From positions 1 to 21,361 of the IMG/VR virus record IMGVR_UViG_3300025806_000271: a stretch of DNA of 21,361 nt, one strand, 5' to 3'. A program made the position numbers and the translations under genes. Source of the DNA: a virus. Below, in pieces: positions 2,391-21,361 of the stretch (the first letter of the stretch is position 1; every line of letters starts with the position of its first letter). The notes under the pieces are model-generated. The model searched no databases. It was given only the letters and a program-made list of their open reading frames with translations, and was not told the DNA's origin.

Positions 2391-2965
2391 CGACTGTAGC
2401 AAGCAAAGAGCCAGAGAAGTTGGTGGCGGGGGATACCCTTAAATTTACCAAGTCTGTATCAGATTACGCGCCAGAGGATAGCTGGGTTTTGTCTTATGCG
2501 CTGGTATCTTCAACGAATCAATATAACTTTAGTGCGTCTGATAATGGCGATGGTACGCACTTAGTCAATGTTGCGGCAGCGACTACGGTTGCGTGGGTTG
2601 TTGGTACTTACAAGTGGCAAGCATACGTTACAAAAGCAAGCGAGCGTTATTCGGTAGGCGCGGGAACACTTGAGGTTGTTTCCGACTTTTCTGGTGAGAC
2701 TTCGTTTGATGCGAGGGCGCACTGTAAGAAGGTTTTAGACGCTATTGAGTTGACTATTGAGGGCAAGGCCAGCAAAGACCAGCAAAGCTATTCGATATCA
2801 TTTGGTGATAGCGGTGCAAGTCGTTCTATCTCCAGACTTTCTTTTGGTGAGCTTATCGAGGCTCGAAAATTCTATAAGAACGAATACCAGCGATTGAAAA
2901 GACAGGAGCGCATTGCTAACGGCTTAGACAGTGGCCGCACAATTCATATCAGGATGGGCGTTTAA
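2384..2965 (+). CDS. Head-tail connector, gpW-like with N-terminal Ig-like domain (193 aa)
   Basis: It sits between the large terminase and portal genes, the place of gpW in lambda. Residues 1-105 are a predicted beta-sandwich rich in Thr/Val/Tyr (VAGDTLKFTKSVSDY, GTYKWQAYVTK), like Ig-like domains of phage virions. Residues about 110-193 are helical and end in LSFGELIEARKFYKNEY followed by a basic tail with RTIHIRMGV, recalling the gpW pattern. Plain lambda gpW is only about 68 aa, so the N-terminal domain is an addition. The ATG overlaps the terminase stop by 7 bp and the stop overlaps the portal ATG (TAATG). The connector role is inferred from position and the C-terminal pattern. Confidence 0.6.
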   Translation: MVATVASKEPEKLVAGDTLKFTKSVSDYAPEDSWVLSYALVSSTNQYNFSASDNGDGTHLVNVAAATTVAWVVGTYKWQAYVTKASERYSVGAGTLEVVSDFSGETSFDARAHCKKVLDAIELTIEGKASKDQQSYSISFGDSGASRSISRLSFGELIEARKFYKNEYQRLKRQERIANGLDSGRTIHIRMGV

Positions 2966-4368
2966 TGTTTGGGTTATTCAAAAAGAGAATCAAAGACGAT
3001 TACGCACCGAGTAAATCGCAGTTTCAGAAGCGTGATTTTAGCGCGGCCCAGAACAAGTTATTTTTTGACGGTTGGACTACACAAGCATCAAGCATAGACC
3101 AGATATTAAAGAGCCAGCATAGTTCTTTGGTGGCTAGAAGTAGAGAGCAGACGCGAAATAATCCATTGATGCGCCATGCGGCTAACATCATGGCCAAGAA
3201 CGTGATCGGCTCAAAAGGCATTACGGTGTATCCAAAGGTTAAGCGTGATGCCCAAAGGCTAGACAAGCCAGCTAACGAGGCGATTAAAGCGGCGTGGATG
3301 GACTGGTGCGTTAATGACTGTGATTACACTGGAAGTATGAGCTTTGTAGAGCTTTGTTCTCTTTGGGTAAAAACCGCTTTTGTTGATGGTGAGTTCTTAT
3401 TCATTGTTCATAACGAGGGAAAGTATGGCTTGCAAGTTGAGAACATCGACCCGCAGCTTATCTACACAGAGCGCAACCAAAAAGAGACAAGCGGCAATGT
3501 TACACGCTTAGGTGTGGAGTATTCAGGCTCTAAGGTTGCGGCTTTATGGCTTAAGACAATAGATGAAGATGGTGGATACTCGGCTTACAACGTAAGACGT
3601 ATTGATGCTGGGCAAATCTACCATTGCTTTATTCGAGATTGGGCGAATCAATCAAGGGGTATTCCCTGGGCCAGCGCGTCACTAACTAGGTTGAAGCACT
3701 TAGACGCTTTTGACGAATCGGCTTTGATAGCGGCTCGTGCGGGTGCGTCTAAAATGGGATTCATAAGCGGCGCTGATGATGATGATGATGAGTACGACAA
3801 CGGCTTGCCTACAATGGACTTTAGCCCAGGCACTATTGAGAAGTTAGCCGATGGTGAGGAGTTCACAGGCTTTGATCCTAACTACCCAAGCGATGCTTAT
3901 ACGCCGTTTACTAAGAAGGGTATACGCGATGTAGGCGCGGGAATGGATATTAGTTACGCCTCACTTTCTGGTGATATGTCGGACGTTAACTACTCATCTA
4001 TTCGGTGGGGTGGTCAAGACGAGCGAGAGAGCTTTATTGACAGACAGAATTGGTTTATCCGTTGCGTAGTAAAGCCGTTATATGAGGACTTTATTAGGAA
4101 CGCTGTTTTGCGTCAACAAATAATGATTGGGACTAGACCATTATCTAGGCCAGTTAATGAATACATGAAGGCGCATTTTCAGGGGCGTAGATGGTTGTCT
4201 ACAGATCCGCAGAAAGAGGCTAAGGGCTATCAGATGGACTTAGAGAGCGGATTGATTTCGCCTCAAAGAATCATTGCTAGTCGGGGTGAAGATCCAGAAG
4301 AAATACTTGAAGAAATTAGAGAATGGGAATCCATGAGGGGCATAAAGAATGACCAAGAAAATAAATAA
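2965..4368 (+). CDS. Portal protein, lambda gpB family (467 aa)
   Basis: Forms the ring at the unique capsid vertex through which DNA enters and leaves. Family features include the N-terminal SREQTRNNPLMRHAANIMAKN helix region, the SFVELCSLWVKTAFVDGEFL segment, and the C-terminal DVNYSSIRWGGQDERESF wing/stem motif seen in lambda-type portals. An acidic loop with five consecutive Asp residues occurs near residues 270-275, encoded by a GAT run at about 3775-3789. The start overlaps the preceding stop (TAATG) and the end overlaps the protease-capsid gene by 20 bp. The length (467 aa) is somewhat shorter than lambda gpB (533 aa) and the C-terminus looks intact. Confidence 0.95.
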   Translation: MFGLFKKRIKDDYAPSKSQFQKRDFSAAQNKLFFDGWTTQASSIDQILKSQHSSLVARSREQTRNNPLMRHAANIMAKNVIGSKGITVYPKVKRDAQRLDKPANEAIKAAWMDWCVNDCDYTGSMSFVELCSLWVKTAFVDGEFLFIVHNEGKYGLQVENIDPQLIYTERNQKETSGNVTRLGVEYSGSKVAALWLKTIDEDGGYSAYNVRRIDAGQIYHCFIRDWANQSRGIPWASASLTRLKHLDAFDESALIAARAGASKMGFISGADDDDDEYDNGLPTMDFSPGTIEKLADGEEFTGFDPNYPSDAYTPFTKKGIRDVGAGMDISYASLSGDMSDVNYSSIRWGGQDERESFIDRQNWFIRCVVKPLYEDFIRNAVLRQQIMIGTRPLSRPVNEYMKAHFQGRRWLSTDPQKEAKGYQMDLESGLISPQRIIASRGEDPEEILEEIREWESMRGIKNDQENK

Positions 4369-6196
4369 GAATTTAACCCGCGAGATGAGAATCGCGGATT
4401 TTACAAATACAGACGAAGAAAAAAGAACCATAGAGGTGGCTTTTTCTTCGGAAGTCCCGGTCGAGCGTTTTATGAATGGCTCGACTGTCGATGAAGTCTT
4501 AGACCATAACCCGCAAAGCGTGAGGCTCGACCGTTTGAACAACGGCGGCGCGGTGTTAGTGGAGCATGACAGAAACGACCAGGTGGGCGTTGTAGAGAGC
4601 GCGAGAATTGACGGCGACCGCGTTGGTCGAGCAGTTATTCGCTTCTCAAAAAGCAAGAGAGGTAAAGAGATTTACCAAGACGTTATTGACGGTATTAGGA
4701 CGCTCATATCTGTTGGCTATTCGGCTGGCGATTGGGAAGAAACTAGAGACAACGAAAGAACACAAATAAGGGCGAAAAAATGGACTCCATACGAGATTTC
4801 AATCGTCTCAATTCCATCAGACTGGCAGGGCGCAGGGGTTGGAAGATCAAACAAACAAAACAAAAAGGAAACTAAAATGACTGACGTTAAAAAAGAAGTA
4901 GAAGCACAAGCCGAGCGCAAAGTAGAAGCGCCTCAAATAAACGTTCGTGAATTGCAAGACAAGACACGCAGACAAGAGCTAGACCGAATTAACTCTATTC
5001 GTCAAATGGCAGAACAGCACGACTTTGATAAGTTGGGCGCGGACGCTATCGAGCGCGGTACAGACTCAAACGCTTTTTATAAAGAGCTTTTAGAGAAAGT
5101 TGGTGAGCGTAACGCTGCGGTTCGAGCAAAGCAAGAAACAGAAACTGGCGAAGCGGCCGGTAATGTTGGACTATCACGCAAAGAGAAAAATGCTTTCTCA
5201 ATGGTCCGTTTGATGGATGCAATGGCTAACCCGAATGACCGTTCAGCACAAAATGCGGCTGGCTTTGAGTTGGAAGTATGCGCTGAAGCAGAGCGTACAC
5301 TGCCTGGCGATTTCAAAGTGCGCGGCTCGTTCATTCCAACCGAAGTTTTCAACCGTGATCTAACGGCTGGAACGGCTACGGATGGCGCTGAGTTGGTTGC
5401 GACTAACTTGCTTTCTGGTTCTTACATTGACGTATTGCGTAACAACATGGTTGCCCTACAAGCTGGCGCTACTATGCTTCCGGGCTTAGTTGGTAATGTT
5501 GCAATCCCACGACAGACTTCTGGCGCGGCTGCGACTTGGATTAGTGCCGAAGATGGGGACGCTACAGAGAGCGAGCCACAATTCGACCAGATCACGTTAT
5601 CACCTAAAGACCTTGCGGCTTATACCGAAGTGTCTCGCCGTTTGAGCCTACAAAGCTCACCAGCGATTGAAGGCATTGTGCGTAACGACTTGTTCATGGC
5701 GTTAGCTTTGGGTATGGATGCGGCTGTTTATTACGGTTCTGGTTCATCTGGTCAGCCACAAGGAATTGATGGTGCGACTGGCGTTGCAGACCCTACGTTC
5801 GCAAGTGCTACAGCTCCAACTTATGCCGAGTTAGTCACTCAAATGAAAACTTTGATGACTTCAAACGCTGCTAATAACCTTACTTACATCGGTTCACCTG
5901 ATTTTTGGGAGACTGTTAAAACTACGCCTAAGCAGGGTTCAGGCGTTGAGGGTAACTTCATTAGCGACGGCAATAGCATCTTGGGTCGTAACCTTTTGAC
6001 TAGCTCACAGCTGGCGGCTGATGATTTTGTGTTAGGCGACTTTAGCAACATCTTGATCGGTGAGTGGGGCGGTATTGAATTAAATACAGACCCTTACACT
6101 CATTCGCTTAAGGGCAAGACTCGTTACGTCATCTTTAAGACTTGCGACATCGCTATACGTCACCCACAGGCGTTCAGCTTCCATAACGCAGCTTAA
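4349..6196 (+). CDS. Fused prohead protease, scaffold and HK97-fold major capsid protein (615 aa)
   Basis: Three modules in one frame. Residues 1-170 are an HK97/S78-like prohead protease with a likely catalytic His73 (LVEHDRND), Ser121 (TLISVGYSAGDW) and a conserved Glu149 (PYEISIVSIPSD). Residues about 177-265 are charged and helical, like the delta/scaffold domain removed during maturation. Residues about 270-615 are HK97-fold major capsid protein, for example FIPTEVFNRDLTAGT, GNVAIPRQTSGAAATW and the C-terminal KTCDIAIRHPQAFSF. In most phages protease and capsid are separate genes. An in-frame ATG at 4877 (Met177) has its own ribosome site and would make a 439-aa scaffold-capsid protein without the protease, which would solve the stoichiometry problem. 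Confidence 0.93.
   Translation: MTKKINKNLTREMRIADFTNTDEEKRTIEVAFSSEVPVERFMNGSTVDEVLDHNPQSVRLDRLNNGGAVLVEHDRNDQVGVVESARIDGDRVGRAVIRFSKSKRGKEIYQDVIDGIRTLISVGYSAGDWEETRDNERTQIRAKKWTPYEISIVSIPSDWQGAGVGRSNKQNKKETKMTDVKKEVEAQAERKVEAPQINVRELQDKTRRQELDRINSIRQMAEQHDFDKLGADAIERGTDSNAFYKELLEKVGERNAAVRAKQETETGEAAGNVGLSRKEKNAFSMVRLMDAMANPNDRSAQNAAGFELEVCAEAERTLPGDFKVRGSFIPTEVFNRDLTAGTATDGAELVATNLLSGSYIDVLRNNMVALQAGATMLPGLVGNVAIPRQTSGAAATWISAEDGDATESEPQFDQITLSPKDLAAYTEVSRRLSLQSSPAIEGIVRNDLFMALALGMDAAVYYGSGSSGQPQGIDGATGVADPTFASATAPTYAELVTQMKTLMTSNAANNLTYIGSPDFWETVKTTPKQGSGVEGNFISDGNSILGRNLLTSSQLAADDFVLGDFSNILIGEWGGIELNTDPYTHSLKGKTRYVIFKTCDIAIRHPQAFSFHNAA
4865..4879 (+). promoter_or_regulatory. Internal ribosome binding site and start codon for capsid without protease
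   Basis: AAGGA at 4865-4869, a 7-base spacer, then ATG at 4877-4879 in frame with the fusion ORF (codon 177). The start falls exactly at the junction between the protease domain and the scaffold-like helix. Initiation here would give a 439-aa product ending at 6196. This is inferred from motif quality and position, with no expression evidence. Confidence 0.6.
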
Positions 6197-20889: not shown

Positions 20890-21361
20890 CTAAGCCGATG
20901 CTTCAATCTCAGCCATTCGGTTAATCTCAGCTAAGGCATCCTCGTTACTCGCGTAGAAATTCAAAGCAAAAGGCAAATCTGAGCTTTTGCGATATATGAG
21001 ATAAGCGGCTGTAGCTGTTGATGTTTTCTTTTCAAGCTCATACCCAGCATCCCCTGCAAGATGCACCGCCCAACCAGCACGACAATGGCTTGTGCCGCAA
21101 TGCCAATCGCCCATTTTAAGTGCGCCTTTGTGTTTGGTCGCTTTCTGTATTTCTTGGTGAATGTTCTTAATGACAGGGACATTAAGGTATGCGCCTTCAA
21201 GGTATGCGCCTCTACGGTATGCGCCTGTAAGGTCTGCGCCTCTAAGGTTTGCGCCTGTAAGGTCTGCGCCTCTACGGTATGCGCCTGTAAGGTATGCGCC
21301 TCTAGGGTATGCGCCTGTAAGGTATGCGCCTTCAAGGTCTGCGCCTCTAAGGTTTGCGCCT
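20890..21361 (-). CDS. Pentapeptide-repeat protein, C-terminal part (156 residues visible; 5' end beyond the window)
   Basis: On the minus strand the frame is open from the window edge to TAG at 20890. The first 60 visible residues are twelve pentapeptides of type GA(Y/D/N)LX, which fold as a four-sided beta helix. A linker (VPVIKNIHQEIQKATKHKG) leads to a C-terminal domain beginning about 21114: GDWHCGTSHCRAGWAVHLAG, then TATAAYLIYRKSSDLPF and FYASNEDALAEINRMAE. I recall the same WHC-x-TSHCRAGW ending on other pentapeptide-repeat proteins. The internal ATG at 21114 is not the true start. The repeat part could mimic DNA, as in Qnr/MfpA proteins; the function here is unknown. Confidence 0.85.
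   Translation of the reverse strand, partial: GANLRGADLEGAYLTGAYPRGAYLTGAYRRGADLTGANLRGADLTGAYRRGAYLEGAYLNVPVIKNIHQEIQKATKHKGALKMGDWHCGTSHCRAGWAVHLAGDAGYELEKKTSTATAAYLIYRKSSDLPFALNFYASNEDALAEINRMAEIEASA
21181..21360 (-). repeat. Twelve 15-bp tandem repeats encoding pentapeptides
   Basis: Twelve units of 15 bases, each ending in plus-strand TGCGCC (minus GGCGCA), run to the window edge. Between 21211 and 21330 they alternate between Arg-ending and Thr-ending pentads, so the repeat order is really 30 bp, four copies, a sign of recent tandem duplication. Copy number at the window edge may be uncertain in the assembly. Confidence 0.9.

Follow-up and report, generated by a model that had tools for sequence, protein, structure and literature searches.

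The window analysed here is a stretch of viral DNA of 21,361 nucleotides (positions 1 to 21,361 of the IMG/VR record IMGVR_UViG_3300025806_000271) that carries, behind genes for a lambda-type terminase and a lambda-family portal protein, one open reading frame in which a prohead protease, a scaffold and a capsid protein are joined (Table 1). The ribosome-binding region of the full-length start sits within the end of the portal gene. An identical single-frame layout was found in 67 full-length ORFs, that of the window among them, and the window protein matches phrog_617 (major head protein) over residues 7-611 (E 3e-134), as a full-length member does. The nearest NCBIfam fusion model, NF045541 (scaf_prot_MCP2, "prohead protease/major capsid protein fusion"), gives 173 bits against a cut-off of 525, which marks the window protein as related to that model and below its membership score. 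On the Pfam S78 and capsid matches given below, the phrog_617 placement and NF045541 as nearest model, the window fusion is by its sequence an unremarkable representative of an already known class (phrog_617). The fusions of the phrog_617/NF045541 type in VP882, phiHAP-1, vB_EcoM-ep3, RcCronus and R4C have the protease-scaffold-capsid order in one ORF, as the window does, but they are annotated as one product, unlike the two-start reading developed here. At the far end of the window, on the minus strand (20890-21360), lies a pentapeptide-repeat protein (PF00805, E 2e-21) that is cut by the window end; other frames are open there too.

Table 1. Features of the fusion gene and its surroundings in the window
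Feature	Position	Strand	Remarks
Lambda-family portal gene	2965..4368	+	Directly upstream; 20-base overlap with the fusion start
Ribosome-binding region of the full-length start	4335..4348	+	GAGGGG 8 bases before ATG 4349; anti-SD energy -7.7
Protease-scaffold-capsid fusion gene	4349..6196 (stop counted)	+	Open ORF, 615 aa
S78-type prohead protease domain	4349..4816	+	Residues ~1-156; His73, Ser121, Glu149
Disordered hypervariable linker	4817..4939	+	Residues ~157-197; pLDDT < 50; holds the internal start
AAGGA, Shine-Dalgarno (SD) site of the internal start	4865..4869	+	7-base spacer to the ATG
Internal in-frame ATG, codon 177	4877..4879	+	Proposed start of a 439-aa scaffold-capsid
Helical delta-like scaffold domain	4943..5296	+	Residues 199-316, AlphaFold2
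Mature HK97-fold capsid domain	5384..6193	+	Starts at about Gly346; cleavage is presumed within residues 336-346, just before it

The original prediction, made from the DNA letters, had assigned the N-terminal part of the ORF to a protease with His73, Ser121 and Glu149, and this assignment holds. Pfam Peptidase_S78 is matched at residues 68-157 (E 1.3e-5, above cut-off); H73, S121 and E149 are invariant in an alignment of 29 fusions, and in a protease-only alignment that takes in remote members H73 and S121 are invariant and E149 nearly so. AlphaFold2, run on the window protein with relatives from IMG/VR and genome contigs aligned, gives a protease fold at residues 7-155 (pLDDT 86 for the domain modelled alone), and the model aligns with the T4 prohead protease gp21 over 140 residues (Z 12.6, rmsd 2.9), with the herpesvirus proteases as next-best structural matches (Z 5-7). 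The His, Ser and acidic residue and the assemblin-like fold by which an S78 prohead protease is recognised are present in sequence and model. In some relatives an extra N-terminal region of about 230 residues, belonging to phrog_2859 (unknown function), was also seen (L083, 778-1500; L076, 769-1500; L087, 411-1127); S-CBS3 and CRP-811 have it fused ahead of the protease, and in CRP-823 it forms an ORF by itself.

A delta-like helix and an HK97-fold capsid had been read in the same ORF, and both are borne out by the models and matches. AlphaFold2 predicts helices at residues 199-316, Pfam Phage_capsid is matched at residues 357-610 (E 2e-38), and the capsid part is structurally closest to the capsids of Dinoroseobacter phage R4C (8gta) and HK97; a helical scaffold followed by an HK97-fold capsid is what Pfam, AlphaFold2 and the fold match agree on. 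A second weak stretch of the model lies at residues 336-357, with the capsid running from about residue 346. The R4C gene (L088) is itself one of these protease-capsid fusions, and its solved chain (8gta) has 268 residues, the first of them equivalent to Gly346; thus, by analogy with R4C, the mature shell seems to lack both protease and scaffold. The R4C shell consists of 415 such subunits with T=7 (PMC10276861).

Within this gene, the ATG at 4877, with AAGGA seven bases upstream, had been proposed as the start of a 439-aa product at the junction of the modules, and the position fits the claim: the ATG is in frame, at codon 177, and falls in the middle of the linker, between folded modules, where pLDDT is below 50. 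Ribosome sites were scored by a crude model from our own script that considers SD pairing, spacing and local structure. On this scale 4877 reaches -6.2 and 4349 reaches -2.4, and the best of the remaining in-frame ATGs stands at +8.5, so that 4877 is by far the best-scored of the 11 in-frame ATGs past codon 45 and, for the window, about 3.8 kcal/mol better than 4349 under this crude model. Its surroundings are A-rich and are predicted to be among the most accessible 2% of the ORF. Such values could be taken to mean that the internal start makes nearly all of the functional product, the long form being a minor or dispensable read-through and the protease able to act in trans, since 4877 is predicted in the window to be both stronger and far less structured than 4349. 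Conservation of the active-site residues and of the unbroken frame, which indicates that the fused protease is under selection, makes this improbable, and the window ORFs that were examined showed no recognisable second protease gene. Family-wide, prediction favours the internal over the annotated start in 12 of 18 records, which comprise the window and the named phages; in contigs it favours the internal start over the best early one in 13 of 28. Internal and full-length starts are thus merely comparable in predicted strength. An excess of the short form as a family-wide prediction is not uniformly supported by these counts and is not established, because they are not consistent across the family.

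The relatives used to examine conservation came from an IMG/VR scan with capsid-only peptides and from named phages; once the sequences had been clustered at 80% identity, 47 full-length fusions were left. Bacterial genomes, when scanned, yielded just a single relative. A first scan peptide (QNKKETKM) had included the internal Met, and the repeat with capsid-only peptides recovered the same loci and 41 more; as the peptides come from the capsid alone, the set is not biased toward the linker. One otherwise close relative (L040) with a frame change in the capsid part (at about 1531), probably a sequencing error, was left aside. Each of the 47 non-redundant fusions, the most distant of them at about 30% identity, has an in-frame linker ATG, placed past the protease end (typically PADxxVGVGR) and ahead of the scaffold. 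The linkers differ in length and sequence and are unalignable, and the residues that follow the Met resemble an N-terminus (MT, MS or ME, then E or D).

Presence of a Met is by itself weak evidence in any one member, and the argument is carried by the position-specific SD and by the controls along the ORF. For the 38 SD-type fusions among the 47, the mean anti-SD energy at the linker ATG is -6.4 kcal/mol versus -2.05 kcal/mol at 491 other in-frame ATGs (p=1e-17), and the difference persists (p 1.7e-12) when the comparison is repeated with single-ATG linkers alone, as a guard against choosing the best SD among several ATGs. The anti-SD energy profile has its minimum at the linker ATG, and SD 4-mers centre at -9/-10. 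Additionally, a scan of the whole ORF in 42-residue segments found ATG and SD together in the linker of 34 of the 47 fusions and at most in 17 of the 47 elsewhere. The original prediction had made it a test whether close relatives conserve the internal start, and the start is kept there and also at 30-40% identity. The further expectation that ATG and AAGGA are both conserved stands for the ATG in all 47 and for the position of the SD, but not for the SD sequence, and no SD was found at the linker ATG in 9 of the 47 (the Synechococcus phages and the uncultured L048-L057 clade). Linker ATGs without an SD were noted in L029, L083, L084 and L048-L057, where initiation would need another signal, and the SD sites of L077 and L085 are weak. 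In L083 and L084 (the cyanophages S-CBS1 and S-CBS3) a major tropism determinant (mtd) gene is annotated close downstream of the capsid fusion.

The same pattern might be ascribed to the peptide rather than to the ribosome, if the Met and the charged residues around it formed a peptide signal (a self-cleavage site, for example) and the SD-like bases merely followed from Lys, Glu and Gly codons. Lys/Glu-rich linkers do lead to purine-rich DNA, and when the upstream codons are recoded synonymously most members fall short of significance individually, the window included (0.36). Taken over the whole set, on the other hand, 0 of 1000 recoded sets reach the observed mean SD strength; the peptide before the Met varies freely (KKETK, KEDDK, QQEAT, QKEVH), and the SD peak lies at the spacing expected for initiation, so that a peptide signal is a very remote explanation.

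Further evidence comes from relatives in which the modules are arranged otherwise. In L062, L064 and L066-L072, which were reached through the capsid part, protease and capsid are separate: behind an S78-like ORF comes one for the capsid, about 390-425 aa long, with an ATG of its own and mostly an SD as well. This capsid ORF begins at the place that corresponds to the internal start, and in content (scaffold and capsid) it matches the 439-aa chain predicted from 4877. As far as sequence comparison can tell, the fusion thus resembles two neighbouring genes that lost the stop and the spacer between them and kept the start of the second. Fusions with a second capsid family were also found. Stenotrophomonas phage S1, with an S78 protease and a phrog_4523 capsid, has CAGGAG and an ATG at codon 207, and Gifsy-2 (ClpP-like protease, S1-related capsid, phrog_133) has GAGGAG and an ATG at codon 221, in both cases just past the protease. 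Among the non-redundant S1/Gifsy-2 relatives a linker ATG is present in 50 of 51 loci, and in 82% of those 50 the SD reaches -4 or better (p 5e-22 versus other in-frame ATGs); the exceptions are L127, without a linker ATG, and several S78 members with weak sites. S1 and Gifsy-2 resemble each other downstream of about S1 residue 202, while the proteases before that point are unrelated, which places the protease swap close to the internal start. Because S1-type fusions resemble phrog_617 in protease and scaffold, we do not count the three protease/capsid combinations as having arisen independently. The loci with the other capsid family (L091, 7461-9443; L092, 2472-4562; and L093-L247) have S78 or ClpP-like proteases, with an SD and an ATG immediately behind the protease, close to where one protease type gives way to the other. 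One locus, L148, has an ORF of about 1220 residues, over 550 of which precede the S78 protease and give no Pfam match.

These comparisons bear on a rival reading of the gene, namely that only the full-length fusion is made, that each subunit brings its own protease, which is later self-excised, and that the linker ATG is left over from the start of the former capsid gene. The named phage records examined agree with it in that no internal start is annotated at the junction, and it is plausible that the linker is cut by proteolysis, given that the N-terminal parts are missing from the modelled R4C shell. A relic, however, should decay, whereas ATG and SD are retained in an unalignable linker down to about 30% identity and are found beside a different type of protease as well, which makes the full-length product alone an unlikely outcome.

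The best and simplest explanation appears to be dual initiation, with protease-scaffold-capsid and plain scaffold-capsid chains that co-assemble and are then cleaved; we assign it a probability of roughly 0.82. The gene would then hold two genes nested in a single frame: ribosomes starting at 4349 would make the 615-aa protease-scaffold-capsid, and those starting at 4877, which has a ribosome site of its own in the disordered linker, would make the 439-aa scaffold-capsid, the counterpart of the complete capsid protein in HK97-type phages whose genes are separate. Sharing their scaffold and capsid parts, the two forms would co-assemble into the prohead, so that the long form would bring the protease into its interior at a sub-stoichiometric dose, and the protease would cut the linker and the scaffold (near residues 336-346) to leave a shell of subunits of about 270 aa. 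The two-start reading of the original prediction is supported at the level of sequence, by the anatomy of the gene, the conserved start and ribosome site and the equivalence to stand-alone capsid genes; the use of 4877 by ribosomes, the ratio of the forms and their co-assembly are inferred.

Each element of this scheme has known counterparts. In HK97, the gp4 protease and the gp5 delta-capsid are encoded by separate genes and the protease is not covalently tied to a capsid subunit; an S78-type protease and a delta-capsid of similar size are common to HK97 and the window, and the 439-aa form corresponds to gp5. In lambda, a nested in-frame start within C, after the portal gene, gives a protease-scaffold and the scaffold alone (Nu3), while the capsid protein E is the product of a separate gene and the protease is not of the S78 type. 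The comparison with lambda C/Nu3 drawn earlier stands for the logic of nesting and for the position after a lambda-type portal gene, but not for the capsid, which is in the same gene here; the short product is scaffold only in lambda and scaffold-capsid in the window. An in-frame internal start with a ribosome site of its own, conserved in relatives, is present in the window by sequence, as expected of a nested two-start gene. The herpesvirus UL26/UL26.5 pair also has a protease-scaffold and a scaffold-only form with a common C-terminus, made from nested transcripts, and a separate capsid protein; long and short forms that share a C-terminus and a related protease fold recall the window, unlike the nested transcripts, the lack of an internal ribosome site and the separate capsid protein. 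A "tripartite capsid gene" has been described in Gifsy-2 (Effantin et al., 2010, as cited in PMC8538268). Gifsy-2 resembles the window in having protease, central domain and capsid in one gene, with GAGGAG and an ATG after the protease, and differs from it in the ClpP-like protease and the capsid family (phrog_133).

Head genes with a nested in-frame start are already known, and so are genes in which protease and capsid are fused. An internal start in protease-capsid fusions was not reported in the searchable literature (the Gifsy-2 and phiHAP-1 papers lay outside the search), and a full capsid precursor made from inside such a fusion is absent from the annotations examined. On a wider scale, the balance of evidence tilts slightly toward dual initiation being general for the fused protease-capsid genes of tailed phages, in which case the linker ribosome site would be a fixed joint at which S78 and ClpP-like proteases are exchanged, and the covalent minority subunit would set the dose of protease per prohead. 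If dual initiation is true, it would explain how phages with a fused polypeptide avoid one protease per subunit (415 subunits in R4C), and it would correct the annotation of, and the expression work on, many phages for which only the full-length protein is recorded. It would also explain how different proteases can be swapped onto one capsid module.
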